A DNA stretch of 43,929 nucleotides from NCBI GenBank assembly GCA_003280025.1, contig QCGD01000013.1, positions 1 to 43,929 on the forward strand. The letters are read 5' to 3'. Under the pieces are notes generated by a model. That model was not told where the DNA came from, ran no database searches, and saw only the letters and a program-made list of their open reading frames with translations. This document shows, piece after piece, positions 21,684 to 43,159 of the stretch (its first letter is position 1; each line of letters starts with the position of its first letter). Source of the DNA: Prochlorococcus sp. AG-363-P06. GTDB taxonomy: Bacteria > Cyanobacteriota > Cyanobacteriia > PCC-6307 > Cyanobiaceae. Made by a program: the position numbers and the translations under genes.

Positions 21684-22416
21684 TACCCAAAAATGTAAAT
21701 TTAGTTTCCCCTGTGAAAGTCTTTAAAACTAAATTTGGTTATTAATATTAATCATTAGAAAATCTAACTACTCTTTTTCATCTAACTTAAATATTAAAAA
21801 GATGATATTAAATTATCCTTTAGTTTAATTGTATTCTTTAAATTTGTATAATTTTACTTTCCTATAATCATTTTTTAGGCGATAACAATAATAACTCTTT
21901 ATTATTTTTGTGATTTATCTTTCAATCTTTCTAATAATTCTTGGTATTTATGTATTTAAAGGACATAAGATTTATTTCATGTTTATTGATAAACTTTAGT
22001 AATAGAATCCAAAAAAAGTATTTAAATTTAACAAAATAATTCAGCTGAATTCATAAATAGTTTTCCTTACTAGAGCACGCAAGGAATGTTTATTGTCATC
22101 CTAGATGGAGAAGAAAAAGATCCTACAAGGCAAGGGGAATCCTATCATCCTAACCTAGAATATTTAAAAGAAATAGGTATAGATGTCAATTGAGAATATA
22201 AGATTAAACGCTTTCTAATTGCACTGGTCTATTAAATACGATTGACAGTCGATCTAACATAGAGGGATAAAAACTTTTTTAATGGAATTATTTTTTGTCT
22301 ATTAAATCATTATTATTTTTAGAAGAAATATTAAAACATGAATAATTAAAAGAATATCTATTTAATTTTATTAATAAAAGATATAAATATAATTAAATAG
22401 TGAGAAAGTATGAAAT
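21684..22416. other. 733-base gap with minor ORFs and one orphan promoter element
   Basis: Two small frames are possible genes. A GTG frame (21910-21999, 29 residues) reads as a membrane helix (VIYLSIFLIILGIYVF). An ATG frame (22086-22193, 35 residues) begins MFIVILDGEEKDPTRQG. A copy of the recurrent promoter-like element lies at 22242-22281, but the ATG after it opens only seven codons, so here it appears orphaned. The rest is featureless. Confidence 0.4.
22242..22281 (+). promoter_or_regulatory. Recurrent promoter-like element, orphan copy
   Basis: TTGACA (22242-22247), an 18-base spacer containing GTCGATCTAACATAGAG, then GATAAA (22266-22271) and a T-run just before an ATG. The downstream frame is only seven codons long. 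Same layout as the copies before microprotein genes. Confidence 0.55.
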
Positions 22417-23103
22417 ATGAACAATAAGTCAAAATATATAGCTCCAGGATTATTTGGATTAAGAGAAAGGATCGCTTTTAAGGTAAGAAGTAGTATTTAT
22501 AAAAAAATGGAACTTTTATTAAAACCAAGGAAATCTTGGAGTGTTCTTGATGTTGGAGTTACGAATGATAATTCATTTGATTCGAATTTTTTTGAGAAGA
22601 TATATCCTTATAAAAATAAAATAACTGCTGTTGGACTAGAGGATGCAAGCTTTCTAGAAAAAAAGTATAAAGGACTTAAATTTTTTAAAGCAAATGCATT
22701 AAATTTACCTTTCGAAGATAATTATTTTGATTTGGCTTTTTGTTCCGCAGTTATAGAACATGTGGGCTGTTATTCCAATCAAATACAATGTGTAAAAGAA
22801 TTATCGCGAGTAAGTAATTTGTGTTTGATAACTACACCAAACAAATCATTTCCACTTGAATTTCATACTTTAACATTATTTATTCATTGGTTACCACCCA
22901 GAATATTTAGATACTTTTTACGTTTAACAGGAAGAAAGTTTTTTTCATACGAAGAAAATTTAAATCTTCTTAATCAATTTGAAATCGAAAGTATTTTCGA
23001 TAAGCTTAAAATAAATTATATTTCTAATCACTTTAAATTTTTAGGTCTTAGGACTAACCTTGTTTATATAATTTCTAAAAAAAATCTAAATAATTTTATA
23101 TAA
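22417..23103 (+). CDS. SAM-dependent methyltransferase (class I)
   Basis: A 228-residue methyltransferase of the Methyltransf_11 type. Motif I is degenerate (WSVLDVGVTNDNSF), followed by FKANALNLPFEDNYFDLAF and FCSAVIEHVGCYSNQ (motifs II/III region), which is the usual layout. The C-terminal part is hydrophobic and basic (IHWLPPRIFRYFLRLTGRKF), suggesting a membrane-proximal lipid or glycan substrate. First gene of a co-directional run with the desaturase and a second methyltransferase, inside the tRNA-Ser island. Confidence 0.75.
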   Translation: MNNKSKYIAPGLFGLRERIAFKVRSSIYKKMELLLKPRKSWSVLDVGVTNDNSFDSNFFEKIYPYKNKITAVGLEDASFLEKKYKGLKFFKANALNLPFEDNYFDLAFCSAVIEHVGCYSNQIQCVKELSRVSNLCLITTPNKSFPLEFHTLTLFIHWLPPRIFRYFLRLTGRKFFSYEENLNLLNQFEIESIFDKLKINYISNHFKFLGLRTNLVYIISKKNLNNFI

Positions 23104-23175
23104 TTATTTTTATAGTTATTTCATAAATAGATTTATTTTGAATCTATTTTAAATCAAAAGTATTAATAAATTCCA

Positions 23176-24150
23176 ATGTCAGATCTAAAAAAGAAATATA
23201 GAGAATTAAGTTGTAAGTTATTAAATCCAAATGAAATTCAACAATTATCAAAATTACGGCCAAAATTCGTTGTTTTCGATACTTTAAAGTCTTGGATATT
23301 AATTTTAATTTGTTTTTTACTTTCAATAAGAAATACTAATATTTTTTTTAATTTGATAGCGTTAATAGTTATTACGACACAAATTTATTCTTTATTGATA
23401 ATTGCTCATGATGGTTTCCACAGAAGACTTTTTCATAATAAAAATATTAATGATTTATGGAATGATTTTTTTATTTTAGGATTTATGGGGGCTATTACTA
23501 GAATAAACAATAAAAATCACTTAACGCATCATCTCAGGCTTTGCGAATTTGATGATCCTGACAGATATAAATATCAATCAAAAGGGAGATCAAGTATGAT
23601 GGAATTCTTTTTTAAGATCTCTTCAATTCCTCTTATATTTTATTCATTCAAAAATATTTTTATAAAACCCTTTTTAAAAAACAAAAAATTTAATAACAAA
23701 AATAAAAAATATTTAACTATCCCCTCTTATTCCATAAGAGATATTTTGATCATATTTTCTTGTCAAACGCTTATATTTTATTTTTTTCTTAATTATTTAA
23801 GTTTTTTAAAATTAATTTATTTGTGGTTTATACCAATGGCACTCGCTCAATCAATTGATATATTTAGAGTTTTTTCTGAACATTCTCGTCCAATGATAGA
23901 TGAAATTTCAGATAAATCATTAAGACTTTCAAACTTTAAGATAAATTGTCTTGAAAGATTATTCTTTTCTCCGCATAACATGAATTTCCATGCAACACAT
24001 CATTTGTGGACTTCAATTCCTTATTATAATCTTAGAAAAGCTACAATTTTAGTAGAGCAAAATGCTATTAAAAGAAGGGAAATAATACTAACCTATAAAA
24101 GTTATTTTGAACCTATTAATAACTTTTATCAATATGTCAGATCTATCTAG
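23176..24150 (+). CDS. Fatty-acid desaturase-family membrane di-iron enzyme
   Basis: The 324-residue protein has the three histidine boxes of membrane desaturases/hydroxylases: AHDGFHRRLFH, NHLTHHLRL and FHATHHLW. Several hydrophobic segments lie between them. These bind a di-iron centre that activates O2 with electrons from ferredoxin. Substrate may be an acyl chain or a carotenoid; the boxes alone do not decide. Placement between two methyltransferases in a glycan/lipid island suggests modification of a surface lipid rather than bulk membrane desaturation. Its 3' end overlaps the start region of the next gene. Confidence 0.8.
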   Translation: MSDLKKKYRELSCKLLNPNEIQQLSKLRPKFVVFDTLKSWILILICFLLSIRNTNIFFNLIALIVITTQIYSLLIIAHDGFHRRLFHNKNINDLWNDFFILGFMGAITRINNKNHLTHHLRLCEFDDPDRYKYQSKGRSSMMEFFFKISSIPLIFYSFKNIFIKPFLKNKKFNNKNKKYLTIPSYSIRDILIIFSCQTLIFYFFLNYLSFLKLIYLWFIPMALAQSIDIFRVFSEHSRPMIDEISDKSLRLSNFKINCLERLFFSPHNMNFHATHHLWTSIPYYNLRKATILVEQNAIKRREIILTYKSYFEPINNFYQYVRSI

Positions 24151-25129
24151 AATTATGGATTCTTCTTTTAAAAATTATTTATCGCAAAATAAATTTCTTA
24201 ATAATTGCATTTTATGTGAAAAAAAAGAATTCAAGAAATATTCATCAGGTTATGATTATGAATTGCAAACTTGCTCAAATAAATGGGAATTTTTGAAATG
24301 TGATAATTGCGGTCATATTCAATTAAATCCAAGGCCTATTAAAGAAAATTTAAAAATTATATATCCAATTAATTATTATTCGTATGAAATTAGTAAAAAA
24401 TTAAATTATTTTATTCTTAGAGGTAAGGATATTTTAGATTTCTTAAAGTTAAAAAGTATTATTAGATTTTCTAATAATTATATTTCTACTTATTTAGATA
24501 TTGGTTGTGGAGATGGTAGATATCTTAACCTTGTCAATAAAATTTGCAAAATACCTAAAAAAGAAATCTTTGGTACTGAAATTAATTTAAATAATATAGA
24601 AATATTAAAAAAAGAAGGCTTTTCAGTTTTTAATGAAAAAGAAAATTCTTTGAAATACATTAGGAAAAATTCAATTTCACTTATTACTATGTTTCATGTA
24701 ATTGAACATCTTGAAAATCCTAAAGATTTTATTCTTCAAATGAAGTATTTGTTAGAAAAAAGGGGCATTATTGCAATTGAAACGCCTAATGTTGATTCTT
24801 TGGATAGCAGGTTATTTAAAAAGACCTATTGGGGTGGATATCATTTTCCTAGGCATTGGCATTTGTTTTCAAAAAAAACATTAACTAAATTAATGTTGGA
24901 TTCGGGTTTTGAAATTATTAAAGTTAATTATCTTCCAGGACATTCTTTTTGGCTTTATTCTTTTCATCACTTATTTAAGTATGAATGGAATTTGCCATTT
25001 ATAGCTAAATTTATGGATCCCATGAAAAGTAAACTATTTTTAATTATTTTTACGTTGTTTGATATTGTTAGATCTAGGTTAGGTTTTAAGACTTCATCAA
25101 TAATGATAGTTGCAAGAAAAATTTCATAA
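24134..25129 (+). CDS. SAM methyltransferase with N-terminal zinc-ribbon-like segment
   Basis: The longest frame opens at 24107. I prefer ATG 24134 (17-base overlap with the desaturase) or ATG 24155, since 24107 overlaps far into the desaturase. The product (about 331 residues) has a Cys4-type segment (CILCEKKEF, then LKCDNCGHIQLNPRP), then a class I methyltransferase core (STYLDIGCGDGRYLNLV, MFHVIEHLENPKDF). This is the domain pair seen in sugar or O-antigen methyltransferases of the 'Methyltransf_23 with zinc ribbon' type. Overlap implies co-translation with the desaturase. Confidence 0.78.
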   Translation: MSDLSRIMDSSFKNYLSQNKFLNNCILCEKKEFKKYSSGYDYELQTCSNKWEFLKCDNCGHIQLNPRPIKENLKIIYPINYYSYEISKKLNYFILRGKDILDFLKLKSIIRFSNNYISTYLDIGCGDGRYLNLVNKICKIPKKEIFGTEINLNNIEILKKEGFSVFNEKENSLKYIRKNSISLITMFHVIEHLENPKDFILQMKYLLEKRGIIAIETPNVDSLDSRLFKKTYWGGYHFPRHWHLFSKKTLTKLMLDSGFEIIKVNYLPGHSFWLYSFHHLFKYEWNLPFIAKFMDPMKSKLFLIIFTLFDIVRSRLGFKTSSIMIVARKIS

Positions 25130-25165
25130 ATAATGATAACAATATTTTTTTCAGAATAAATTTTT

Positions 25166-26431
25166 TTATGGAATCTTATCTGAAACTTTTAAGTTTACTT
25201 TTAAAAATCTTATTAAACACAATACAAATATAATATGAATTCCAATACTATATCTTGGACCTCCAAGAAGTAATGAATGAAAAATTATATAAAACGTACC
25301 TGATAAATATAAAGTTCTTTCAATTCTGCTGAAGCCTTTAAAAATGTGAACAAAGAATGATGTGAAAAAAGCCGGTAAATATATAAAAAAGTGATACATA
25401 TACCAAATTGGTTTAGTTACCCAAGCTCCTGAATAACTTAATACGCTTGCTTCATATAATGCACCAAGGTTTAGATTAATTTTTGTAATCCATAGATTTA
25501 TAAAATAAGAAAAAATCTCAAAATCTGTGAATATAATCTTAAACATTTTAAAAATATTACCTTTGTAGCTATAAATTTCATCTATACCATAATTTGATAA
25601 TAGATAATTATCAATTGCTGCAGCTATAAAACTGATATGTTGATCTTTTGCTAAAAGTAAATAATTTAACTTACTACCAGGATATCTACTATAAATAAAT
25701 TGGTAATATATTAAATAGAAAATTAAACTAGGTAGGATTTGGACAGCAAGATCCTTGTATCCTTTTGGTTTTATTAAAAATATTGAGATGTAAAAGGCTA
25801 TAAGACCAATAATGTATGTAGGCCTAATAAATGAGGCGAAAATCAAAAATAAAACGCGTAAATATTTTTTATCAGATGATATTCCTAAAGAAGTTAAGAA
25901 TATGCATGTACCCATTGTCGAGACTGTAATAGTATCATTAATAAATGGAGGATATAGAGTTGCAATCGATAAAATAATACCTATTGTTCTAGGACCTATA
26001 TATCTTAATTGGAGTTTATTAATTGCACTGAAACTACAAATAATGGTTGTAATACCCATAAATAATCCTAAGAGGAAAAATACAAATTTAGAACCAAATA
26101 TTGTTATTGGTGATAGAAATATTACTGAGTAAAGGATATTTGGAATCCATATTTCGCCATTTACAATTCTTGAAATGTCACAATTATCAGTTTTATTTAT
26201 ATTTTTAATTACTTCACATTTAGCTAATGATTCTGAATAAATTTCATTAGATAGAGTTGAAGTTTTATCACCTAAAAAATTATGTGCAAATGTATGGTAG
26301 AAAGAAAAGTCCGAATTAGCCTCATATAAATTTCCGTTTTTAATAACGTAATAAAATATAGATATTAAGATGAATATTAAAACTGGTAAAAAAATAAACT
26401 TTACATTGTCAAGGTTTAAATTTTTAGACAC
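25166..26431 (-). CDS. Multi-spanning membrane protein, GT-C glycosyltransferase-like
   Basis: A 421-residue integral membrane protein with around ten hydrophobic segments. An early non-cytoplasmic loop follows the first helix and carries acidic NSDFSFYHTFAHNFLGD, placed where GT-C transferases keep their catalytic Asp. A Cys-containing loop follows (SLAKCEVIKNINKTDNCD). GT-C enzymes use lipid-phosphate sugars. It starts 4 bases after the DPMS-type glycosyltransferase ends, so the two are one operon: one makes the lipid-linked sugar, the other may transfer it. The assignment is by topology and context; no strong family motif is visible. Confidence 0.55.
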   Translation of the reverse strand: MSKNLNLDNVKFIFLPVLIFILISIFYYVIKNGNLYEANSDFSFYHTFAHNFLGDKTSTLSNEIYSESLAKCEVIKNINKTDNCDISRIVNGEIWIPNILYSVIFLSPITIFGSKFVFFLLGLFMGITTIICSFSAINKLQLRYIGPRTIGIILSIATLYPPFINDTITVSTMGTCIFLTSLGISSDKKYLRVLFLIFASFIRPTYIIGLIAFYISIFLIKPKGYKDLAVQILPSLIFYLIYYQFIYSRYPGSKLNYLLLAKDQHISFIAAAIDNYLLSNYGIDEIYSYKGNIFKMFKIIFTDFEIFSYFINLWITKINLNLGALYEASVLSYSGAWVTKPIWYMYHFFIYLPAFFTSFFVHIFKGFSRIERTLYLSGTFYIIFHSLLLGGPRYSIGIHIIFVLCLIRFLKVNLKVSDKIP

Positions 26432-26435
26432 AATT

Positions 26436-28122: not shown

Positions 28123-28266
28123 GCTAAATAAATTAGAATATTTATTTCAAATTTAACAATTATTTAGGATAATCAAAAGAGTAATCTTTCTTATTTTATT
28201 TTCAAGATTTGTTTTGATTTATCTTAAAATTTATAATAAGCAATGAAAGCTTCTTAAATATTTCAG

Positions 28267-29090: not shown

Positions 29091-29283
29091 GAAGTTATAC
29101 CTTAAATACGTGAAGTTAATTTAATTGCAATAATTGAGATTAACTAGAGCAAAAATACTGATTATGAATATAGTGAAATATTTAATATAAAAAATTAATT
29201 AGTAAAAATACTCTGGCACAAATTTTTTTCTAATGATATTTTTATTAATACGTTCATCCAATTAACATATCTGGACGCATGAC

Positions 29284-29309
29284 ATGAGAATAGGGAACGG
29301 GATTCTCAT
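29284..29309 (+). promoter_or_regulatory. 5' leader hairpin before a microprotein gene
   Basis: Perfect 8-bp inverted repeat ATGAGAAT/ATTCTCAT with a purine-rich 10-base loop AGGGAACGGG, ending 15 bases before the 29325 start codon. The loop contains ribosome-site-like GGGA, so it could control translation or be a small RNA element. Inference only. Confidence 0.45.
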
Positions 29310-29324: not shown

Positions 29325-29489
29325 ATGAATAACCTCTTACAAATTAGGGCTAAAATAAACAAAGCTGCAAAACTAAAGCAAGCTCAACTTTTGGCAACTA
29401 AGAATGGACAAGTTACTCCATATAGAATATCGGTTTTTAAAGAAAGAGTTAAGGCAGCTCAAAAAGATTTAGAAACCCTAGATTCATAA
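29325..29489 (+). CDS. 54-residue basic helical microprotein
   Basis: ATG to TAA. Sequence is an Ala/Lys/Gln-rich amphipathic helix (IRAKINKAAKLKQAQLLATK), a short GQVTPYRISVF link and a second helix (KERVKAAQKDLETL). It looks like a nucleic-acid-binding or helical-hairpin protein; no family recognised. A hairpin precedes its start and a terminator-like element follows. Confidence 0.6.
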   Translation: MNNLLQIRAKINKAAKLKQAQLLATKNGQVTPYRISVFKERVKAAQKDLETLDS

Positions 29490-29504
29490 TATAGAATTAT
29501 TACT

Positions 29505-29545
29505 TTTCAACTGATCTAAATTAGAGGGGTAAACCCTCTTTTTTT
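29505..29545 (+). terminator. Terminator-like copy of the recurrent element
   Basis: Contains the shared GATCTAAA core (29513-29520), then stem AGAGGG (29523-29528) and CCCTCT (29534-29539) around GTAAA, and a long T-run. As RNA this is a good intrinsic terminator for the 29325 gene. The loop also carries GGTAAA where other copies have their -10 box. No gene starts right after it. Confidence 0.6.
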
Positions 29546-30243: not shown

Positions 30244-30297
30244 CAATATTTTTTTATATATTATTTTAATTTCAAATAGTAAGCTTTTTATAAAAAT

Positions 30298-30330
30298 GGA
30301 TCTAAAATAAGGGGTAATTATCTACTTGTT
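30298..30330 (+). promoter_or_regulatory. Diverged copy of the recurrent promoter-like element
   Basis: GGATCTAAAATAAGGGGTAAT (split core GATCTAAAATA and -10-like GGTAAT) 14 bases before the DUF3764 start. No good -35 box, so a weaker match than other copies. Confidence 0.35.
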
Positions 30331-30331
30331 T

Positions 30332-30637
30332 ATGCCTTGCGATGTTACTTCTGTGTTTACTTTTAAAATTCAGAGTACCTTCGATGAATGGTCAGCAATA
30401 TTTGATAGTGCAGAAGCAGATAAAAGACATTCTGAATTTGATATTAAGCCGCTTTTTAGAGGCGTAAGCAAGGAAGATCCTCAAAAAGTTATCGTTATTC
30501 ATCAAGCTCCAGAAGGTAATGTTCAAAAATTTCTGGAAGCAAACGGAGACTGGATGGCTACTCATAGAGTTGACCTATCAACAATGCAAGAATCCTCTTG
30601 GAATACTTCTCTAAGTAAGGAAAATTGTTGTGATTAA
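30332..30637 (+). CDS. DUF3764-family protein
   Basis: A 101-residue soluble protein. VFTFKIQSTFDEWSAIFDSA at the N-terminus, FRGVSKEDPQKVIVIHQAPE in the middle and WMATHRVDLSTMQESSW near the end fit the cyanobacterial DUF3764 pattern, a likely dimeric alpha-beta barrel. It ends with CC. Function unknown. ATG 30332 is preferred over the TTG two codons upstream. It follows the DUF1330 gene by 88 bases; both folds are similar, so they may be functionally related. Confidence 0.68.
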   Translation: MPCDVTSVFTFKIQSTFDEWSAIFDSAEADKRHSEFDIKPLFRGVSKEDPQKVIVIHQAPEGNVQKFLEANGDWMATHRVDLSTMQESSWNTSLSKENCCD

Positions 30638-31528: not shown

Positions 31529-31600
31529 TTATTTTCACTACTTTGGCATTATTCAATCAAACGCTTACTATTCGCATCTCTATATATTAAGTACAATTAT

Positions 31601-31641
31601 AATTCGATCTAAAATAGCATTGCTAAAGCTCTCTTTTTTTT
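31601..31641 (+). promoter_or_regulatory. Recurrent promoter-like element before the 31642 gene
   Basis: AATTCGATCTAAAATAGC core, then GCTAAA (31622-31627) and a CTCTTTTTTTT run touching the ATG. A short TAGC/GCTA stem is present. The -35 box is poor. Confidence 0.5.
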
Positions 31642-31902
31642 ATGGAAAATAAATTTTACCAATGGTGGAAGAATCATAGAAGAGTAATAACTTTTGGTTT
31701 GTTTCTATCCATTTTTGCTTTTTATCTTAGAATACCTTTTGAGAAGGAATCAAAAGTAAAAGATACCTGTGCGAAACTAAATTCAAGCTATCAAATCACA
31801 GGTGATGAAGCGATGAAGAAGCTTAATTTAAATGAAATAAAAAATTATTCTAATCGCGAGTTGGCTAACTATTACTGTGAGAGATATTTAGGTATTAAAT
31901 AA
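31642..31902 (+). CDS. Small membrane-anchored hypothetical protein with two Cys
   Basis: An 86-residue protein: a short basic start, one membrane helix (ITFGLFLSIFAFYLRIPF), then a charged, probably periplasmic, domain with Cys in KDTCAKLNSSYQ and a C-terminal YYCERYLGIK, likely disulfide-bonded. The C-A-x2-N-S … Y-C layout is shared with the protein encoded at 34129. ATG directly follows the T-run of the recurrent element. Function unknown. Confidence 0.55.
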   Translation: MENKFYQWWKNHRRVITFGLFLSIFAFYLRIPFEKESKVKDTCAKLNSSYQITGDEAMKKLNLNEIKNYSNRELANYYCERYLGIK

Positions 31903-31942: not shown

Positions 31943-31986
31943 TTGACATTTGATATAAAATATACAAATAGATACTCTGATTTTTT
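31943..31986 (+). promoter_or_regulatory. Recurrent promoter-like element before a leader peptide
   Basis: TTGACA (31943-31948), GATATAAAATATAC spacer, TAGATA, CTCTGATTTTTT, then ATG. Diverged copy, no stem. Confidence 0.45.
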
Positions 31987-32456: not shown

Positions 32457-32680
32457 AACGATTATTACTTAAAAAGATATATTAAATAAAACTGAAAGTC
32501 GATCTAATAAAATTAACGACAATTTGATTACAAACTACATAGCTTTGTATTTTAGAAAAGAGACTCTAGGTTTGTAACCAAATAGGTAAAAAAATAGATC
32601 TTCTATTTACAGATTATTTTTATAGTGAATAGAACATATAACGCTAAATCTGTAAGGCGACAAGTGTCCCTCATCTGTTG

Positions 32681-33660: not shown

Positions 33661-33702
33661 TAGACAATCTATCGAAATTTATAGGGATAAAACCCTCTTT
33701 TT
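33661..33702 (+). promoter_or_regulatory. Diverged, orphan copy of the recurrent element
   Basis: TAGACAATCTATCGAAATTT, then AGGGATAAAACCCTCTTTTT with an AGGG/CCCT stem and GATAAA in its loop. No plus-strand gene starts after it. It lies against the 3' end of the 33723 gene. Confidence 0.45.
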
Positions 33703-33722
33703 CAACTTACTTCTTTACCTTC

Positions 33723-34004
33723 TTATTCATCTTCTTTAACTTCACTTTTTCTCTCATCTTCCGGGTTCTCTTGTTCTTCTATTAATAATTCTTGATTAAC
33801 GATACTTTTTTTATCATCTTGAGGTTTTATTTCCTCTTTTTTTAGTTCAGCCTCTTTGATCTTTGGTTTTTCATCTTTAACTTCGACTACGTTCAACTCT
33901 GATGTTTTAGAGGCAAACTTACCTTTAATGAAATTGAATATGAAAATTAGAATAGGAACATGAGCTAAGCCACCTATGATTACTTTAGTTTGTGAATAAG
34001 CCAT
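33723..34004 (-). CDS. Membrane-anchored acidic low-complexity protein
   Basis: A 93-residue protein. One N-terminal hydrophobic segment (VIIGGLAHVPILIFIFNFI), then a highly charged Lys/Glu tail (VVEVKDEKPKIKEAELKKEE and EQENPEDERKSEVKEDE), likely disordered and cytoplasmic. No catalytic motif. It may be a scaffold or tether. ATG start. Confidence 0.5.
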   Translation of the reverse strand: MAYSQTKVIIGGLAHVPILIFIFNFIKGKFASKTSELNVVEVKDEKPKIKEAELKKEEIKPQDDKKSIVNQELLIEEQENPEDERKSEVKEDE

Positions 34005-35056: not shown

Positions 35057-35100
35057 TTGACATTCGATCTAAAATAGAGTTATAAAACTCTTATTTTTTT
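35057..35100 (+). promoter_or_regulatory. Best-preserved recurrent promoter/terminator element
   Basis: TTGACA (35057-35062), an 18-base spacer containing TTCGATCTAAAATAGAG, TATAAA (35081-35086). The -10 overlaps a perfect stem AGAGTT/AACTCT (35076-35081 and 35086-35091) with loop ATAA, then a T-run ending at the ATG. Confidence 0.65.
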
Positions 35101-35226
35101 ATGTCCTCTTCAATGAAAGATTTCTTGGATAAATTTTTTGATTTATGTAGAGAATATCAAGAAGAAATCCCTCCTCAAAAAATGGCAGAAATTTTAAGGG
35201 ATTATGCTGATAGATTAGATGGTTGA
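35101..35226 (+). CDS. 41-residue acidic helical microprotein
   Basis: ATG to TGA. MSSSMKDFLDKFFDLCREYQ then EEIPPQKMAEILRDYADRL: two amphipathic helices around a Pro pair, one Cys. The start follows the promoter element immediately, with no ribosome site. No family recognised. Confidence 0.55.
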   Translation: MSSSMKDFLDKFFDLCREYQEEIPPQKMAEILRDYADRLDG

Positions 35227-36282: not shown

Positions 36283-36292
36283 AGATATAAAA

Positions 36293-37324: not shown

Positions 37325-37331
37325 TAATAAT

Positions 37332-38225
37332 TCATATCCCTGATTTCATTATTGATTTATCAATGATTCCCATTACTTTTGTTATTAATAAATTAAGGAT
37401 TAAAAAACTACAAAGTAAAATTATAAAGCACTCTACAGCTCTTCCTGTTTGGTTTATTATCGTGTCATTTATTGCATAAATATCTGAATACCCTATAGCT
37501 ATTGCGAGTGTACTATTTTTTGCAAGATTTAGATATTGACTAGTAAGTCCTGGAATAAAGGCTGGTAATGCTTGCGGTATTATTATTTTAAAAAATCCTT
37601 GTTTTTCAGAAATACCTAAACTTCGAAAAGCTTCCCATTGACCTAGAGGGACAGACTGAATCCCACCTCGAATTACTTCTGCAATAAACGCGCTTGAGAA
37701 TATGCTTAAACCAAATAATAATGCTGAAAACTCGGGAGATAAATTAAGTCCAAATAACTCTATCCCTTTATTAGAAATATTAAATATATTACTTATACTC
37801 AAAAAAGAATTATTTCTCATATTCAAAAATCCAACAAAATACCAACACATAAGTTGAATTAAAAGTGGAGTCTGTCTAATAACTGTAATGTATCCAGCCG
37901 TAATAATACTAAAAAATGAATTTTTTCCTACTCTCAAAAAACCTATTAACGTTCCAATACAAGTTGCTAAAACAAGAGATGAAATAATAACTTTCAAGCT
38001 ATTCATCCATCCAATAAAAAGAGCCCATGCATAACTGTCCGATGGACTATAGGGCAAGGGATGTTCTGCCAAAGAAAAGCTTGCCGGCTTTGTTAACCAA
38101 TTAAAATTGAATCCTAAGCCGGTTCTTGCAAGATTTATAATTAAATTATTAATTAATATTCCTAAAAAACCAAGAAAGGCAAACACCAAAAGTATCTGAA
38201 AAAATTTTTTTTTATTTTTACTCAT
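37332..38225 (-). CDS. Amino-acid ABC transporter, permease subunit (AapQ-like)
   Basis: A 297-residue permease with about six to eight membrane helices. Contact loop EAFRSLGISEKQGFFKIIIP and the segment VIRQTPLLIQLMCWYFVG are typical of polar amino-acid permeases. The intervening variable loop (about 140-165) is longer than in minimal permeases, as in AapQ/NatG types. Second gene of the operon, 17 bases after the binding protein. Confidence 0.9.
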   Translation of the reverse strand: MSKNKKKFFQILLVFAFLGFLGILINNLIINLARTGLGFNFNWLTKPASFSLAEHPLPYSPSDSYAWALFIGWMNSLKVIISSLVLATCIGTLIGFLRVGKNSFFSIITAGYITVIRQTPLLIQLMCWYFVGFLNMRNNSFLSISNIFNISNKGIELFGLNLSPEFSALLFGLSIFSSAFIAEVIRGGIQSVPLGQWEAFRSLGISEKQGFFKIIIPQALPAFIPGLTSQYLNLAKNSTLAIAIGYSDIYAINDTIINQTGRAVECFIILLCSFLILNLLITKVMGIIDKSIMKSGI

Positions 38226-38242
38226 TCCTCAATATTTTGCAA

Positions 38243-39292
38243 TTAATTAAATGGTGGAGAGATATGTAAACCACCTTTACTATAAATTTCATTCAATCCT
38301 CTTGGAATAGGGACATCACTATCTCTCCCAAGATTTCTATCATATATTTCACCATAATTTCCAGTAGCTTTTATAACATTAACTACGAAGTTATTGCTTA
38401 ATCCGATTTTTTCTCCTAAGCCTCCATCAACTCCAAGAAATCTTCTTAATGATTTTAATTGTGGATTATTTGTAGCTAGCTGAACCTTATCAGCAATATT
38501 TGATTGGGTTATACCTTGCTCTTCAGCAGCAATTAAAGCAAAAACTGTCCATCTCATAGCATCTGCAAGTTTCTGTTCAGACCCATCTGATGCGGGTGCT
38601 AAAGGCTCCTTACTTAAAACATCATCAAGAATAATATGATCTTTTGAATTCTTAAAACCTGATCTAGCTGCTGCCAATTGAGATCGATCAGAGGTCATCG
38701 CTTGACATCGACCTTGTAGATATCCTGCGACTACCTGATTAAGATCTTGATATTTAATTGGGGTGTAAGGAAGCGAGAGACTTTCAAAAGTGTCATTAAT
38801 ATTTTGCTCAGTAGTTGTTCCTGAACCTACACATATAGACTTATTTGCAAGTTCTTGAATACTTTCAATACCGCTATTCTTTTTAACCATTAATCCTTGC
38901 CCATCATGAAAAACTACAGGAGCGAAAGTTAAACCATTTCCTCCAAAAGAATCTCTACTAAGAGTTAAAGTAGTGTTCCTTGACAACAAATCAATATCTC
39001 CTGTTTTAATAGCTAAAAATCTTTCAGCAGCGGTCAGGGGTCTAAACTGAACTTTTTCTGAATCTCCTATTATTGCGGCAGCAAAGGCTTTACATATATC
39101 TACATCTAATCCTTTATAACTACCGTCTCTTTCAATAAAGCTAAAACCTGGAATTTTTCCGCTTACTCCGCAAATTAATTCATCTCTTTTTTGTATTAGG
39201 GATAGCCTAGAAATATTCTTGTTTTGATTACTAGCACAACTAGTTAAAAGCAAACCAAAAGCGGCAATTCCAAAGAAAAATCTATTTATCAT
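38243..39292 (-). CDS. Amino-acid ABC transporter, substrate-binding lipoprotein (AapJ-like)
   Basis: I prefer ATG 39292 over the upstream ATG 39343, because it places a proper lipoprotein signal at the N-terminus (MINRFFFGIAAFGLLLTSCA, lipobox LTSC). The mature protein (about 330 residues) is a type II solute-binding protein: GVSGKIPGFSFIERDGSYKG, LDVDICKAFAAAI and a hinge region with SICVGSGTTTEQN. Length matches the AapJ/NatF family of broad amino-acid binders. Substrate range is not readable. First gene of the operon. Confidence 0.9.
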   Translation of the reverse strand: MINRFFFGIAAFGLLLTSCASNQNKNISRLSLIQKRDELICGVSGKIPGFSFIERDGSYKGLDVDICKAFAAAIIGDSEKVQFRPLTAAERFLAIKTGDIDLLSRNTTLTLSRDSFGGNGLTFAPVVFHDGQGLMVKKNSGIESIQELANKSICVGSGTTTEQNINDTFESLSLPYTPIKYQDLNQVVAGYLQGRCQAMTSDRSQLAAARSGFKNSKDHIILDDVLSKEPLAPASDGSEQKLADAMRWTVFALIAAEEQGITQSNIADKVQLATNNPQLKSLRRFLGVDGGLGEKIGLSNNFVVNVIKATGNYGEIYDRNLGRDSDVPIPRGLNEIYSKGGLHISPPFN

Positions 39293-39381
39293 ATTTTTTA
39301 ATAAATTAACTATAAATTTTCTTAATTTTAATGCGCATGTCAATTAATAAACAAAATTTAGATATTCTCACTTATACCTAA

Positions 39382-39558
39382 TCATATTTTCATTGGTTTA
39401 TTAGTCGCACATAATTTTTCCCAACATTCTTTACTAGCAATGCAATGTTCATAAGATGGATTACGTTTCCTATAAACACTTATTGCCATGTAAGTTGGAA
39501 ATCCTGATTCACTGAAATACCAAATGGTTTTTGTTTCTTCATCAATAATTCTTTTCAT
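39382..39558 (-). CDS. 58-residue hypothetical protein with three Cys
   Basis: ATG 39558 to TGA. MKRIIDEETKTIWYFSESGF, then SYEHCIASKECWEKLCATN. The front reads as a small beta unit and the back as a Cys-rich helix (C-x5-C-x4-C). No signal peptide. Function unknown. On the same strand as the transporter operon and upstream of it, about 40 bases before the longer start of the binding protein. Confidence 0.5.
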   Translation of the reverse strand: MKRIIDEETKTIWYFSESGFPTYMAISVYRKRNPSYEHCIASKECWEKLCATNKPMKI

Positions 39559-39634
39559 GATTAAAAGGCATTGTTATTAATTTAAGCACTATGTCGTATC
39601 GGGGGTGGGTGCCGAATTAAGTAAAGGTATGTGC

Positions 39635-39904
39635 CTAGTTTTTCTCCTTTTCTCTTAATTCTGGAAAGCAATTAGCAATATGGATTAACTCATAGACCTC
39701 TGTACTATCATATTTTTTATTTGGCACTCCACTTCCTAATTCTATACCCTTAGATTTCATTTTCTCCAATATTAATTCTTGCCTTTCTTGGCTTGTCATT
39801 GCTTTGTATTTTTTTCTTTTTTCTTCCTTATTCAAAATTAATAACGCTAAAACTATAGTACAAATACTAAAAATTAAACTCCAATTCTGAGATTTAATTT
39901 TCAA
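39635..39904 (-). CDS. Small membrane-anchored hypothetical protein
   Basis: An 89-residue protein: N-terminal anchor (WSLIFSICTIVLALLILN), a strongly charged helical linker (KEEKRKKYKAMTSQERQELI) and a polar tail with one Cys (IANCFPELREKEKN). The linker resembles a coiled coil. No family recognised. Between hli and the 39382 gene on the same strand. Confidence 0.5.
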   Translation of the reverse strand: MKIKSQNWSLIFSICTIVLALLILNKEEKRKKYKAMTSQERQELILEKMKSKGIELGSGVPNKKYDSTEVYELIHIANCFPELREKEKN

Positions 39905-39968
39905 TTTAGAAATACTCCTTATATATCTTGAGTAATCTTATATAAATTATCAACAATATTAGTACTAT

Positions 39969-40034
39969 TTAAACGCCAGCAAGAACTGTATTTGTGTGAT
40001 TATGCCAAAGCTCCTTAAAAAATTCTATATTCAT
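39969..40034 (-). CDS. 21-residue peptide directly coupled to hli
   Basis: ATG 40034 follows the hli TAA with no gap (TAAATG). MNIEFFKELWHNHTNTVLAG plus V, then TAA. Reinitiation after hli is likely. Whether it makes a stable peptide is unknown. It may assist Hli or be a decayed tail. Confidence 0.4.
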   Translation of the reverse strand: MNIEFFKELWHNHTNTVLAGV

Positions 40035-40292
40035 TTAAAGAATTGGATATGCTATCCAACCAAATAAGGTGTAATTAATAATGACAGCCATAAATCCAAT
40101 CATGGCAAGCCGACCATTAGTCCTTTCTGCAATAAACCAATAGCTATCTGGCCATTCAAAATTTTCTCCCATATTGGATATTTGACCTTCTGAAATTGGA
40201 GTCTTTTTAGGAGTATTTCCCTGATCAAGATAATAATTACTATCTGGGTAAAAGCTTTCGCTTGACATATTTTCTGATTTAAAATCAACCAT
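40035..40292 (-). CDS. hli: High-light-inducible protein (Hli)
   Basis: An 85-residue single-helix chlorophyll a/b-binding-like protein. The C-terminal helix carries the signature FIAERTNGRLAMIGFMAVII with the ExxNGRxAMIGF chlorophyll-binding motif. The polar N-terminal extension (about 45 residues) is longer than in the shortest Prochlorococcus Hli forms. Such proteins sit in thylakoids, bind chlorophyll and carotenoid, and protect photosystems under high light or nutrient stress. Multiple hli copies in genomic islands are typical of high-light Prochlorococcus. Coupled to a 21-residue ORF downstream. Confidence 0.93.
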   Translation of the reverse strand: MVDFKSENMSSESFYPDSNYYLDQGNTPKKTPISEGQISNMGENFEWPDSYWFIAERTNGRLAMIGFMAVIINYTLFGWIAYPIL

Positions 40293-40420
40293 TTTATTAG
40301 AAATTTGATTTTAAATATCCTAAAAAGTATTTATTAATTATGTTGTTTTTAGTTCCTAAAACCACACTATTAAATTAATAACAATAGAAGGACAATATAG
40401 ATGTAAATACAGGAGGTCTT

Positions 40421-40567
40421 ATGAAACTCATTACTCCTTTCACTATCCTCAATAAAAGCTTCCACGAAATAGACTTTATAAGAGCAGCAATGAAAAAAAG
40501 AAATTTAGCATCTGAAAGATTGCATGAAGATTATAGAAAAATACACAAAACTCACCAATTTGCTTAA
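40421..40567 (+). CDS. 48-residue basic microprotein
   Basis: ATG preceded by the strong site AGGAGGTCTT. MKLITPFTILNKSFHEIDFI, then RAAMKKRNLASERLHEDYRK. It is basic and helical in its second half. Its 3' end overlaps the end of the minus-strand membrane microprotein by four bases. No family recognised. Confidence 0.55.
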   Translation: MKLITPFTILNKSFHEIDFIRAAMKKRNLASERLHEDYRKIHKTHQFA

Positions 40568-40704
40568 TTAACTAGGAGGTTTTTTGTCAGGTCGATTATA
40601 GAATTTATCATTTTTCTTTCTTTTTGATCTCTTATAAACCGCAAAAAGCCTAAAAATACTAAAGTAATTAATAAACCCTCTAGGAATAAAGGAACATTAA
40701 TCAT
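40564..40704 (-). CDS. 46-residue membrane microprotein
   Basis: ATG 40704 lies inside the last codons of the upstream microprotein (8-base overlap). One N-terminal helix (VPLFLEGLLITLVFLGFLRF) and a charged tail (IRDQKERKMINSIIDLTK). Translationally coupled with the gene before it, perhaps a two-protein membrane unit. Confidence 0.55.
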   Translation of the reverse strand: MINVPLFLEGLLITLVFLGFLRFIRDQKERKMINSIIDLTKNLLVN

Positions 40705-40840
40705 AGAAGGGAATTAATGGTAAGGCTCTTCTCTTTTCAGCCTCCATATAAAGAAAATACAAAAAATAACCTCTAGTAACTGTTATACAAGCGGTTAGAA
40801 ATGCTACAGCGACACATATAGGGCAATGTGGAAATCCCAT
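40697..40840 (-). CDS. 47-residue MGFPHC membrane microprotein
   Basis: ATG 40840 to TAA. MGFPHCPICVAVAFLTACIT, then VTRGYFLYFLYMEAEKRRAL. The front C-P-I-C next to His suggests a metal or redox site at the start of the membrane helix. The same M-x-F-P-H-C start occurs in the 27-residue 32973 gene. It overlaps the next microprotein. Confidence 0.55.
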   Translation of the reverse strand: MGFPHCPICVAVAFLTACITVTRGYFLYFLYMEAEKRRALPLIPFYD

Positions 40841-41110
40841 ATTTAAAGTTTTTTGTTGATTATATTATTGAGAATCTATTAATATCAATAAGCAGAAATA
40901 CTAAAATGCTTGATGTCACTAGCATCTAGTCACAAATATATACATTAATATAGTGCGATATAAAGGCAAAAAAGATACTTTTAGCGAATTTAAGACGATT
41001 TATCGCCAATTGAAATGTTTTTTACTGTTTATTTACCGATTCTTTTTACAGCAGCCCTTGCCTTCTCAAGAATATCTCTTTTTAAGGGGACAAAGCCTTT
41101 CTAAAAGTTG

Positions 41111-41401
41111 CTACTTGGCTAGTCCTATTTGCTTCAACAATTTCAGGTATGGTAAAGCCCAACTTCCCAAGGTAAGTGAGACTTTCGTATTTGAAGCAGT
41201 TGGAGTTAATAATTTGGAACGAAAAGAAAGCAATCTCTGGATTTGTTTGATAGTTCCTGCTTCTAAGTTATCCAGACGCAATTCTTTGCGAGTAGCTCGG
41301 TCTTTCTTCTGGGGCAAATAGTTCTCCACGAACCACAAAACTTGATCTAATTTTGATTTCTTTGTGGAGACTTTTAATTGCTTGGATGTTTCTAGAAACA
41401 T
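41111..41401 (-). CDS. Basic hypothetical protein
   Basis: A 96-residue, Lys/Leu-rich, helical protein: ETSKQLKVSTKKSKLDQVLW, then FVENYLPQKKDRATRKELRL and EAGTIKQIQRLL. A GGAAAAG ribosome site precedes ATG 41401. A plus-strand frame overlaps most of it, but its composition (Phe/Ser/Cys-rich, no ribosome site) looks like a mirror of this gene. Possibly nucleic-acid binding. The G+C content is slightly higher than its surroundings. Confidence 0.5.
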   Translation of the reverse strand: MFLETSKQLKVSTKKSKLDQVLWFVENYLPQKKDRATRKELRLDNLEAGTIKQIQRLLSFRSKLLTPTASNTKVSLTLGSWALPYLKLLKQIGLAK

Positions 41402-41465
41402 CTTTTCCTTTTCTCGTTATCGCTGAATCAAATTTGCCATCTATTTATTTGATAGCAATAGCAAC

Positions 41466-41588
41466 TCAGTAAATCTTATGTTGAATTAACAATCTAGTAT
41501 CAGGCAATAAATATTCTATAAATTCCGAAATTTGCTCTTTTGTAAAATTTACATTCAAATATATTATTACCTTATTTTGAAAAAGCAC
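41466..41588 (-). CDS. Possible 40-residue protein with GTG start
   Basis: GTG 41588 to TGA. Reads MLFQNKVIIYLNVNFTKEQI, then SEFIEYLLPDTRLLIQHKIY: a strand-helix pattern with sensible composition. A TTG 33 bases on gives a 29-residue variant. On the same strand as the 41111 gene, 64 bases upstream. Weak start, so modest confidence. Confidence 0.35.
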   Translation of the reverse strand: MLFQNKVIIYLNVNFTKEQISEFIEYLLPDTRLLIQHKIY

Positions 41589-41680
41589 TTGCTACAACAT
41601 TCATAATTTATATTTTTCTAATGTAAAAAAAAGAAAAAGTAGTCCTTAGTACGATATAAAAATAATACTTTAGGCAAGAA

Positions 41681-41700
41681 GGGGCTAAAAAAATAGCCCC
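41681..41700. repeat. Strong hairpin GGGGCTA/TAGCCCC
   Basis: A perfect 7-bp inverted repeat around six A. No proper T-run on either side, although TTCTT follows on the minus strand. It may be a weak terminator or an RNA element; the sequence before it (TACGATATAAA) resembles that at 40950. Confidence 0.5.
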
Positions 41701-41816
41701 TCTAGGTGAAACTCTTCCAAAGAAACACCAAGTTTATTTATATGTCATTAAAAGAAAAAAAAACTTTAACTGTTATCTTCTTTAACTTTACTTAACCATA
41801 TTTATTCGAATAAAAA

Positions 41817-41839
41817 AAAGAGAAGTTTAAGTTCTCTTT
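41817..41839. terminator. Probable terminator hairpin
   Basis: AAAGAGAA (41817-41824) pairs with TTCTCTTT (41832-41839) around GTTTAAG. A-rich upstream and T-rich downstream flanks make it usable in both directions. On the minus strand it lies after the 41911 gene. Confidence 0.5.
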
Positions 41840-41910
41840 AAATTTATCTTTTAGCCGAGTGGAAACTATAGAAGAAGCAAGAATAGAATATGACAAATCA
41901 AGCTTCATTT

Positions 41911-42096
41911 TTATTGCTGTTGAAGTTCGTCTTTTCTTTTCTTAAGTCTTTTATATTCTTCATGTAAAGATCCAAGTTGCCAAGCATCTCTAAAACCTCT
42001 TGGACCTTCCAAGAGGAGTCTTACTACTTCAGTTTTATGAGCCTTCATATCCAAAAATTCTTTTTGCCAAGTAGTGTCATCCCATTGAGTGCTCAT
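41911..42096 (-). CDS. 61-residue helical hypothetical protein
   Basis: ATG 42096 to TAA. MSTQWDDTTWQKEFLDMKAH, then a helical KTEVVRLLLEGPRGFRDAWQ and a charged coiled tail (HEEYKRLKKRKDELQQQ). No membrane segment. It looks like a conserved picocyanobacterial microprotein; function unknown. Confidence 0.6.
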   Translation of the reverse strand: MSTQWDDTTWQKEFLDMKAHKTEVVRLLLEGPRGFRDAWQLGSLHEEYKRLKKRKDELQQQ

Positions 42097-42248
42097 ACTT
42101 TGAAATTGCTAAATATATATCAAGACTAATTATTTTCTCACTAAATATCTATTATTCCAGAGTTCTCAGATTGCAATCCCTCAAGATTATTAAGCCGTAC
42201 ACAAAATAATAACAATAATTCCTATTATTAGGAAAAAACAAAATTACA

Positions 42249-42422
42249 ATGAAATCAATTCTTGCGAGTAAAAGAGCAAAAGCAATATTTTGTATTGGTG
42301 CAATAGCTATTGGTATTGGTGCAATTTCAAAAAAGTTTATTAGCTATCCAAATGGAGGTTGCATGAAAGGTTCTCTAGAAATGACTTTAAATAAAGAAAT
42401 AAAAGATATTAGACATATTTAG
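42249..42422 (+). CDS. 57-residue membrane microprotein with GAIAIGIGAI helix
   Basis: ATG to TAG. Basic start MKSILASKRAKA, one Gly/Ile-rich helix (IFCIGAIAIGIGAISKKF), then a polar tail with a second Cys (PNGGCMKGSLEMTL). The helix contains a near-repeat (IGAIAIGIGAI). Function unknown. Confidence 0.5.
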   Translation: MKSILASKRAKAIFCIGAIAIGIGAISKKFISYPNGGCMKGSLEMTLNKEIKDIRHI

Positions 42423-42458
42423 TTTTAATTTCCTTCTGATAAAGGGATGAGAAGGGTT

Positions 42459-42611
42459 TTATTTATTTACTACTTTTCCACCATACTGTCTTACTATTTT
42501 ATCTAACAAAATTCGCATATCTTTATTTTTAAGTTTTTCTATTTGCTGCAAATTTTCAAGAAGATCACATATTTGATCCTGTGTGTCTTCATTTAATTCT
42601 GAAACTGCCAT
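42459..42611 (-). CDS. 50-residue 'LKNKD..YGG' microprotein
   Basis: ATG 42611 to TAA. MAVSELNEDTQDQICDLLEN, then LQQIEKLKNKDMRILLDKIV and RQYGGKVVNK. Clear paralogue of the 43160 protein: shared Q-I-x2-L-L, L-K-N-K-D, L-D and R-x-Y-G-G-x-V-V. It is expressed from a good copy of the recurrent element. Soluble, helical, function unknown. Confidence 0.65.
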   Translation of the reverse strand: MAVSELNEDTQDQICDLLENLQQIEKLKNKDMRILLDKIVRQYGGKVVNK

Positions 42612-42657
42612 TAAAAAAAAAGAGGGTTTTATCCCTCTATGTTAGAGCGAGTGTCAA
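42612..42657 (-). promoter_or_regulatory. Recurrent promoter/terminator element on the minus strand
   Basis: Read on the minus strand: TTGACA (42657-42652), 18-base spacer ending CTCTAACATAGAGG, GATAAA (42633-42628). The stem AGAGGG/CCCTCT surrounds ATAAAA, then a T-run up to the ATG at 42611. Same design as 35057-35100. Confidence 0.65.
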
Positions 42658-42674
42658 TAAAAAGTTTTTGAATT

Positions 42675-43103
42675 TTAATTATGAATAGTAATAGGGAGTC
42701 CCATAGAAGATGCTGCAAATACATAAAGAACTGCTGGTTTTTTTCCTATATTTTCAACGATGTGTTCATCACCATTATTGCTCTCTATAAATGATTCCTT
42801 TGATGAAAAATAATTAATAACATCTCCTCTAGTATGCTTCAATTTACCTTTAGCAAGATACACAACCATCGGTGCTGGATGTGTATGTATTGGAGTCTTT
42901 ACTCCAACAGGGATAATTACTTTTAAAAATCTAAGCTCGCCTTGTTTCCACCTAGGATAAGAAATTTTCTTACCTCCCAAACCTGTTGTACCTTGAATAA
43001 GAGGTATTACTTCAATCTTTTCATCAGCTTTAGCATTATCCAAAGGAAGAAGAATTGATGATATTGTTATTGCAGAGATTAATAAATTTCTAATTTTTGC
43101 CAT
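42675..43103 (-). CDS. Exported cupin-domain protein
   Basis: A 142-residue protein with a signal peptide (LLISAITISSILLPLDNAKA, cleavage before DEKIE). It is a single cupin_2 domain: TPIHTHPAPMVVYLAKGKL carries the first metal-binding motif (H-x-H), and NNGDEHIVENIGKKPAVLYV the second with one His. It likely binds a divalent metal in the periplasm or lumen. The reaction is unknown. A TTGACA box lies upstream at 43145-43140, a weak relative of the recurrent element. Confidence 0.8.
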   Translation of the reverse strand: MAKIRNLLISAITISSILLPLDNAKADEKIEVIPLIQGTTGLGGKKISYPRWKQGELRFLKVIIPVGVKTPIHTHPAPMVVYLAKGKLKHTRGDVINYFSSKESFIESNNGDEHIVENIGKKPAVLYVFAASSMGLPITIHN

Positions 43104-43159
43104 AAATCATTAGTTAACTGCCCCTTATTGTAGATTGTCTGTCAATTAATAAAAGGTAT

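Follow-up and report, generated by a model that had tools for sequence, protein, structure and literature searches.

In the stretch of Prochlorococcus sp. AG-363-P06 DNA analyzed here (positions 1-43929, that is 43,929 nucleotides, of one contig, QCGD01000013.1, from a genome of 1.69 Mb in 19 contigs; hereafter, the window), copies of a short repeated element lie ahead of small genes. The conserved part of this element is a 16-base core, TTGACAGTCGATCTAA, which includes most of a 15-bp near-palindrome and the beginning of a −10-like box, TAAMAT. Comparison of its copies across the genus makes it very probable that gene modules are exchanged at the core as at a seam; the best explanation for the element as a whole, which we regard as the likelier one with some reserve, is that it constitutes a cassette junction, with modules joined at the core.

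A Core Sequence Spread throughout the Genus

In an evenly drawn sample of the genus (61 genomes, with the source genome included), the core has 654 matches at two mismatches or fewer, as against 18 for the reversed pattern; all 61 genomes have it, with 1 to 23 cores each (median 10). The left half of the element is its conserved part, because shifting the searched pattern to the left lifts the signal in the source genome: the 16-mer TCGATCTAAAATAGAG has 38 matches there versus 24 for its reversed pattern, and the left-shifted TTGACAGTCGATCTAA, at three mismatches, has 35 versus 9. Cores are also clustered, since in three one-contig genomes a neighboring core lies less than 5 kb away for 8 of 14, 10 of 15, and 10 of 11 cores, where the random means are 1.06, 1.21, and 0.61. 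When the 151 genomes of the family were scanned at one mismatch or fewer, all six members of this genus matched, versus 2 of the 145 others. One of these two matches (L245, in another genus of the family, g17) is element-like, reads TTGACAGTCGATATAA AATAAGGGG and continues like the copies of the family, which suggests rare transfer or a wider range of the element; the other (L246) has no family-like continuation and apparently arose by chance. Among the exact core matches listed for named genomes, 79 of 80 are Prochlorococcus or Synechococcaceae records, and the remaining one is a Flavobacteriales contig, probably a chance match.

The Core as a Probable Junction of Exchanged Modules

The junction first became apparent among unusual copies, in which one upstream flank is followed by unrelated downstream sequences, and conversely. 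The set used to study it comprises 439 distinct non-viral copies with up to three mismatches, the same upstream flank being defined by at least 85% identity over 37 bases and the same downstream module by at least 80% over 73 bases. Downstream identity falls below 45% in 467 of the 646 pairs that have the same upstream flank, and 155 pairs with the same downstream module have an upstream identity below 50%. Clustering yields 363 different combinations of upstream and downstream sequences: more than one downstream partner is found for 47 of the 55 multi-member upstream clusters (up to 16 partners), and more than one upstream partner for 55 of the 70 downstream clusters (up to 5). If offset 0 denotes the first T of the core, single bases are strongly linked to the upstream cluster until offset −1 and weakly from about +15, and linkage to the downstream cluster starts at about +16; over the whole set, linkage points to a crossover at about −1 to +18.

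The ends of local homology among 138 loci are concentrated at cores, where 1278 of 6767 fall, peaking most sharply at offsets −5 to −1; the corresponding number for random positions is 148 of 6767. Other gene starts and gene ends in the same loci served as control for ordinary gene turnover. Homology ends per site amount to 6.57 for cores, 1.31 for other gene starts, 2.65 for other gene ends, and 0.73 for random positions; the sites having any homology end make up 73% of 372 cores, 27% of 838 gene starts, 46% of 897 gene ends, and 18% of 828 random positions. Both the homology-end and the per-site breakpoint counts are independent of aligning the copies on the core.

Cassettes, Empty Sites, and Cargo

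The stretches from core to core behave as cassettes, the ends of which are the cores themselves. We clustered 162 such stretches of 120-1400 bp for which both flanks were available, obtaining 92 clusters, 23 of them multi-member. Among 234 pairs of full-length relatives (90% of length, 75% identity), both neighbors differ in 141, one in 43, and none in 50. A further 13 comparisons, some of which have a partner in common, reveal empty sites, in which a flank and a module joined by a single core are elsewhere separated by cassettes: one cassette in 10 cases, two in 2, and three in 1. Single-gene cassettes are exchanged as units, as indicated by the 141 pairs with both neighbors changed together with the 13 empty-site comparisons. 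The core is accordingly read as the junction because modules recur whole with changed neighbors, homology breaks there more frequently than at other gene boundaries, and sites with and without a given module exist. The median length is 605 bp for 201 same-strand core-to-core stretches of 120-4000 bp; the largest cluster has 14 copies of about 350 bp encoding a 102-aa protein, and the TGA that completes its stop codon belongs to the following core.

The cargo consists mostly of small proteins of unknown function, judging from the 10 examined: Pfam matches are DUF3764, DUF3303 (twice), DUF3804, and DUF1330, and five proteins have no Pfam match, one of them tested as a 60-aa piece only. The small RNAs (sRNAs) Yfr11 and Yfr13 of Rfam lie near cassette junctions in the G058 island (L062, 472-620 and 4509-4606, both on the minus strand).

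Spread by isolated phages was considered as well and set aside, given that three cassette proteins had no match in 50,697 phage records and a 71-base query had none either; one protein had no relative in IMG/VR. The 17 exact core matches of IMG/VR include three that look real, one of which lies on a T4-like contig (L093, IMGVR_UViG_3300006480_000249, 1-1270). This contig carries genes for PhoH, an exonuclease, and an endolysin of T4-like phage; its PhoH gene ends 6 bp ahead of a core that is followed by a cassette also present in the window, MSSSMKDF, and by a host-like gene. L093 may represent a cassette-bearing phage; alternatively, the assembly may be chimeric, with a joint that happens to coincide with a core.

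Anatomy of the Element

We derived the anatomy of the element from 265 copies selected only on TTGACAGTCGATC (one mismatch or fewer), after removal of near-duplicates. Their typical order is core, hairpin of 6-7 bp, T-run, and ATG. The sequence G(−2)ATTGAC-A-GTCGATC forms the 15-bp near-palindrome (7-1-7), the mismatched pair of which is repaired by an A at offset 9 in 34 of the 363 combinations. The base frequencies at offsets 13-18 (T 0.97, A 0.97, A 0.86, A 0.71 or C 0.22, A 0.76, T 0.91) follow what is probably the conservation pattern of a −10 box of sigma-70 type (T1 A2 T6), a predicted promoter element. Beyond it, offsets 19-24 are rich in A/G, 32-36 in C/T, and 37-42 in T, the commonest position of the ATG being offset 43. 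Two hairpin types occur in 65 of the 265 copies each, type A with AGAGGG-ATAAAA-CCCTCT and type B with AAGGGGC-AATTA-GCTCCTT, besides many further forms. When hairpin arms are swapped between copies, the natural combinations are the more stable ones: own arms have −5.19 versus −3.74 ± 0.12 kcal/mol for swapped arms in all copies, −3.33 versus −2.34 ± 0.15 within the class of other hairpins, and −7.95 versus −7.67 ± 0.06 within type A. The promoter and terminator roles are predictions from conservation. An Rfam scan of four sources (the window, L061, L062, and L065) found no family reaching its gathering score at the element. The U-rich sequence ahead of the start codons fits the S1-type initiation that is discussed for MED4 in PMC5607370.

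A preliminary description of the window had proposed a portable cassette acting as promoter and terminator at once, placed at the start codons of accessory microgenes. Part of this picture is supported. In fetched loci, an ATG-initiated open reading frame (ORF) of at least 25 aa starts at offset 52 or less in 176 of 344 copies, versus 8.6% of random positions from the same loci; the start offsets of these 176 ORFs have their mode at 43, and their median length is 92 aa. Both the hairpin and the T-run of a terminator-like pair are scored in 140 of 256 non-viral copies. A −10 box inside the hairpin loop, on the other hand, is not supported: TANNNT stands at offsets 13-18 in 91% of the 256 copies and in 0-2% at offsets 22-25, the loop positions that a −10 box served by TTGACA would take, and the loops of type B (GC-AATTA-GC, about a quarter of the copies) have no −10-like box. 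The −10 box is probably TAAMAT, directly before the hairpin. The motif had also been placed so as to overlook the most conserved part, which lies further to the left (GATTGACAGTCGATC). The element is indeed repeated and portable; what was missed is that it is portable because it is a seam where gene modules are exchanged.

Tyrosine Recombinases Ending at Cores

The source genome encodes a tyrosine recombinase of 396 aa (G000:C14:30966-32156) whose gene stops 9 bp ahead of a core; in G058, another one ends at a core. By their sequences, the core-adjacent proteins are tyrosine recombinases: four integrases tested match Pfam PF00589 with E values of 2.7e-8 to 2.9e-4, the profile of alignment A3 matches the XerC-like PDB chain 4a8e (E 6e-10), and eight recombinases compared, with 18-57% identity to the first, have kept R253, R359, H382, and Y391.

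As these loci either had been retrieved by means of the core or were adjacent to it, we searched 101 genomes of the genus with two alignments, of which A3 has matches in 53 and A4 in 83, mostly to an Xer-like gene. Where a locus was available for the 3′ end, the count was made on 62 distinct integrases that lie outside the query loci and have a complete C-terminus, a core being counted within −20 to +30 of the stop. Eighteen of them end at a core, one (L291, of the Int_L033 family) being identical there to a query. By family, the counts are 6 of 8 in Int_L033, 5 of 6 in Int_L119, 2 of 3 in Int_L069, 2 of 9 in Int_L079, 1 of 6 in IntA, 1 of 5 in IntB, and 1 of 13 in Int_L164. In the Int_L033 and Int_L119 families, different modules follow the core-adjacent integrases, as at an insertion point.

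The Xer-like recombinase of 386 aa (G000:C3:141183-142340, minus strand; L341) was considered as the dedicated enzyme, a role that seems unlikely: it is present in 138 of the 151 family genomes (92 of the 95 near-complete ones), far more widely than the core, and none of 14 members of this housekeeping family ends at a core. Several integrases without a core at their end run directly into a second gene, often one beginning with MSSYLEER, as is the case after the integrase stop in L299, L300, L306, and L332. L190 has such a gene (251 aa), which in turn stops 10 bp ahead of a core. The protein, judged by its sequence, is a putative DNA-ligase adenylation domain.

Copies of the Element in the Window

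The window was scored with a profile trained on 239 copies, from which the window, its own genome, and viral contigs had been left out, and compared with 30 shuffled windows. It has, by this measure, four clear copies, unmatched in the shuffled windows, plus several decayed ones. At 22242..22257 (+) the core is exact (TTGACAGTCGATCTAA, 46.1 bits), with ORF and 3′ arm of the hairpin decayed. The copy at 35057..35072 (+; TTGACATTCGATCTAA, one mismatch to TTGACAGTCGATCTAA, 23.3 bits) is followed by the −10-like TAAAAT at 35070..35075 (element offsets 13-18), by the hairpin AGAGTT-ATAA-AACTCT at 35076..35091, a compensated variant of AGAGGG/CCCTCT ahead of a T-run, and by a 41-aa ORF, MSSSMKDF..., at 35101..35226. 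From the first base of the core, this module recurs with 86-94% identity over about 170 bases in at least eight loci (at least six distinct copies), and the upstream flank differs for each of the copies listed. A search with the start of its ORF retrieved 12 flank sequences outside the source genome, about eight of them mutually unrelated; the presence of the core was checked for part of the 12.

Two clear copies follow each other on the minus strand. That at 43130..43145 (TTGACAGACAATCTAC, three mismatches, 31.3 bits, with a decayed type-B hairpin) heads a core-to-core cassette of 488 bp (42658..43145), whose 142-aa cupin-like ORF at 42675-43103 scores 25.6 bits with Pfam Cupin_2, slightly below the cut-off of 27.2. 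Over query bases 1-486, a stretch that opens with base 1 of the core and stops two bases short of the following one, the cassette has 90% identity to L062; there the window continues with the module MAVSEL. This module begins with the core at 42642..42657 (TTGACACTCGCTCTAA, two mismatches, 28.0 bits), the hairpin AGAGGG-ATAAAA-CCCTCT at 42621..42638, followed by eight T, an A, and the ATG, and a 50-aa ORF, MAVSELNE..., at 42459..42611; it is 91% identical over 206 bases to L121, where it stands after a near-canonical core and a different upstream flank.

The remaining sites, all on the plus strand, score lower. A weak core with three mismatches at 31943..31958 (8.1 bits, 0.03 expected) lacks such a hairpin, and the core-like CTGAAAGTCGATCTAA at 32492..32507 (two mismatches, 5.7 bits, 0.10 expected) has no hairpin or close ORF that we could see. 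Decayed cores precede a DUF3764 ORF (30326-30637) at 30290..30312 (5.3 bits, 0.10 expected) and, with a T-run, an 86-aa ORF (31642-31902) at 31597..31641 (2.7 bits, 0.23 expected). We take these two as decayed copies because, in other loci, the relatives of their genes are headed by a core that is canonical or nearly so: for 30290, at the same place in L247 and L079 (exact) and in L188 (one mismatch), L208 and L102 being likewise decayed; for 31597, in L066 (one mismatch). The stretch at 33661..33704 (1.3 bits, 0.47 expected), weakly core-like and carrying a GGG/CCC stem and a T-run, is convergent to the end of the ORF at 33723-34004 (minus strand). The site at 29504..29545 has a degenerate core, whose profile score alone is at chance (−0.3 bits, 0.67 expected), with an intact hairpin, AGAGGG-GTAAA-CCCTCT, and T-run, 14 bp past a stop codon (29489). 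This stop belongs to a 54-aa ORF (29325-29489), directly 5′ of which lies a Glutamine-II riboswitch (RF01704, 47.8 bits; 29248-29309, plus strand).

Several details of the preliminary description bear on these sites. The window does contain the shared sequence with TTGACA and a box at 18 bp, and the three 6-bp stems described as perfect (29505, 35057, and, on the minus strand, 42612) are so, at the coordinates given; the T-run said to reach the ATG does so at 35057 and falls one base short at 42612. The shared 14-mer on which the description relied is, taken alone, only slightly enriched (20 matches in the window versus 13.0 ± 3.7, a number reached by 4 of 100 shuffles). Among the sites that it lists, 34089 (plus; 1.3 expected) and 31017 (plus; 141 expected) have profile scores at or below chance; 34089 is backed by resemblance only and 31017 is without support. 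Conversely, the site called a weak relative at 43140 (minus) proves to be among the best-scoring ones.

Next to the cassette region lies an AT-rich stretch of long ORFs (about 19-27.6 kb, 22-26% GC), with a tRNA-Ser (TGA) at its edge (18503-18591, minus), an arrangement resembling the border of an island.

Mechanism and Alternative Explanations

How could such a junction work? In the mechanism that we propose, the core of 16-18 bases (near-palindrome GATTGAC-A-GTCGATC plus TAAMAT) would be the joining place of gene-sized modules, and a module would be everything to the right of it (hairpin, T-run, ATG, small gene, and tail), moving as one until the next core. Exchange at the core may be catalyzed by the tyrosine recombinases of core-ending families, as with the cassettes of integrons or pdif sites. 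The resting element would express the module that it heads: transcription might start some 7 nt past TAAMAT (offset ~25), inside the hairpin loop, so that the module's own mRNA would keep no more of the hairpin than its 3′ arm and would have a U-rich leader of ~18 nt; RNA from the neighboring module would carry the hairpin in full and end at the T-run. A captured gene would thereby arrive insulated and ready to be read, and the palindrome could additionally bind a shared regulator. We rate catalysis by a recombinase as an even chance and recombination by plain homology at the repeat as a lesser, still substantial one.

The latter alternative holds that a strong promoter and terminator are shuffled in the manner of the promoter-early stem-loops (PeSLs) of T4-type phages, with repeats of 20-48 bp recombining by homology or template switching and no dedicated recombinase. 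We judge it a serious possibility, albeit below even, and several of our results lean its way and weigh against the mechanism just proposed. Of the 22 much-exchanged modules, 18 share exact stretches of up to 30-71 bp with some other module, long enough to consider homology; the other four, which have 3-4 upstream partners, share at most 18-27 bp, which speaks against plain homology. Among copies of a single hairpin type, base variants on the right-hand side of the core show no clear link with the module downstream, and those of type B lean the opposite way; variant linkage within types A and B hence does not confine the crossover to the core, and crossovers may fall anywhere in the repeat. 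The same gene may stand behind a hairpin of either type, as 8 of 60 A/B-typed pairs disagree. Known tyrosine-recombinase sites have spacers of 6-8 bp, unlike the 1-bp center of the core (7-1-7), a geometry odd for such an enzyme. Several integrase families do have genes ending at cores, a point against doing without a recombinase; on the other side, 44 of the 62 integrases lack a core at their end (in IntC, none of 12 has one), the alignments A3 and A4 were themselves built from core-adjacent integrases, and the curated cut-off of PF00589 is passed only by the first of the four integrases tested, the other three lying below it. Cores are also present in genomes without core-type integrases, such as the complete genome G015, which has 15 cores, no A3 match, and only the Xer-like gene with A4. 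The T4-type phages offer a precedent for such shuffling. The predicted expression signals need qualification, too: no −35 box was found 16-18 bp ahead of TAAMAT in the 256 copies, so the promoter would need an activator; hairpin plus T-run is missing by our scoring in 116 of the 256; and arm swapping within type B gives no covariation beyond chance (−6.30 versus −6.22 ± 0.18 kcal/mol). As to the seam itself, most of the loci were retrieved by way of the core; the step in identity seen there arises in part from aligning the copies on it, whereas the repeated use of flanks and modules does not; and other gene ends also have some excess of breakpoints over random positions.

An expression cassette only, mobile and under a dedicated regulator, with the −10 box in the hairpin loop, would agree with the TTGACA-18-GATAAA/TATAAA geometry of type-A copies, with the placement of the element about 43 bases ahead of the ATG, and with the preference of hairpins for their own arms. 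Such a regulon is disfavored by the position of TANNNT, and expression alone leaves unexplained that one upstream flank is found with up to 16 modules and that breakpoints lie at cores; we consider this reading improbable. Much less credit still is due to an element akin to repetitive extragenic palindromes or miniature inverted-repeat transposable elements, spread by a Y1 (HUH) transposase recognizing the hairpin. A short conserved sequence beside a hairpin in many dispersed copies would suit it, but whole gene modules change place rather than the element alone, and Y1_Tnp (PF01797) is found in none of the 61 genus genomes versus 5 of 14 control genomes, other HUH families not having been searched. 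Chance similarity of AT-rich sequence, or ordinary turnover at gene boundaries in islands, could be entertained from the window alone, given the slight enrichment of the 14-mer, and gene ends do have their breakpoint excess; it becomes hardly tenable in view of 654 versus 18 matches in 61 genomes and of core breakpoints per site that are five times those of other gene starts and 2.5 times those of other gene ends.

Relation to Known Systems

The cassette junction that we favor has its nearest counterpart in logic in the PeSL, reportedly described by Arbiol et al. in 2010 as a small cassette of promoter and terminator stem-loop between accessory genes of T4-type phages; its copies are said to act as points of module exchange, with excised mini-circles also reported. 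In common are the shuffling of modules between copies and, as far as the predicted expression signals hold, the small repeated promoter plus terminator. Our element differs in residing in the genomes of a bacterial genus instead of T4-type phage genomes with phage early promoters, in having one genus-wide 16-base core and a 15-bp near-palindrome, in that the hairpin overlaps the proposed promoter rather than following it, and in the recombinase genes that end at some copies.

Integron cassettes and CALINs (clusters of attC sites lacking integron-integrases) are similar in that single small genes lie between recombination sites, in reshuffled arrays, with or without a nearby tyrosine recombinase. 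Judged by sequence, nonetheless, the element is not an integron. Its site heads the gene and carries a promoter-like box and a hairpin, and there is no attC: the GTTRRRY/RYYYAAC boxes are missing from the consensus TTGACAGTCGATCTAAAAT, and a look-alike of RYYYAAC, ATCTAAC (GTTRRRY on the other strand), arises only with C at offset 16, in 62 of 363 combinations. No IntI is present among nine recombinases scanned, of which only L279 touches NCBIfam TIGR02249, with 15.3 bits versus a cut-off of 265. The pdif/XerCD modules of Acinetobacter plasmids also have short conserved sites flanking one or a few mobile genes; unlike the 28-bp dif of XerC and XerD arms, from which it also differs in sequence, the core here has 16-18 bp with a 7-1-7 near-palindrome, the neighboring cores of a cassette are in direct orientation, and the element carries expression signals.

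Within Prochlorococcus, tycheposons are the mobile elements reportedly described by Hackl et al. in 2023; the genus, the islands, and the presence of tyrosine recombinases are the same. According to PMC10872708, they occur at tRNA genes and are 4-200 kb long, unlike the core-bounded stretches with their median of 605 bp; tRNA genes were looked for here in the window and, with Rfam, in four sources. Actuatons, a likewise portable transcription-start cassette ahead of genes, are presented in PMC5386190 as sRNA/5′ untranslated region cassettes giving an abundant sRNA from its own promoter with incomplete termination; in our element, by contrast, the hairpin would straddle the promoter. A repeated sequence element in Prochlorococcus islands may have been reported by Coleman and coworkers in 2006. 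In the portions covered of the literature searched (including PMC5386190, PMC2518516, PMC5607370, PMC10872708, PMC3037559, PMC2217521, and PMC12416821), the element is not described, and prior notice of it is possible.

Implications for Prochlorococcus Islands

These results bear on the turnover of single genes in the islands of the most abundant photosynthetic organism, with its streamlined genome. It is conceivable, at somewhat less than even likelihood, that high-light Prochlorococcus possesses a genus-wide, integron-like cassette system, in which a 16-base palindromic recombination site would double as promoter and insulating terminator and be served by several divergent families of tyrosine recombinases, with phages perhaps occasionally carrying cassettes. 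If this is true, single small genes would be captured, reordered, and lost as ready-to-express modules. The seam would explain why many unrelated island genes have a common start region; it lets islands be parsed into cassettes, so that gain and loss can be counted in single-cell genomes, and since none of the sampled genomes of the genus lacks it, the turnover of island genes can be tested directly.

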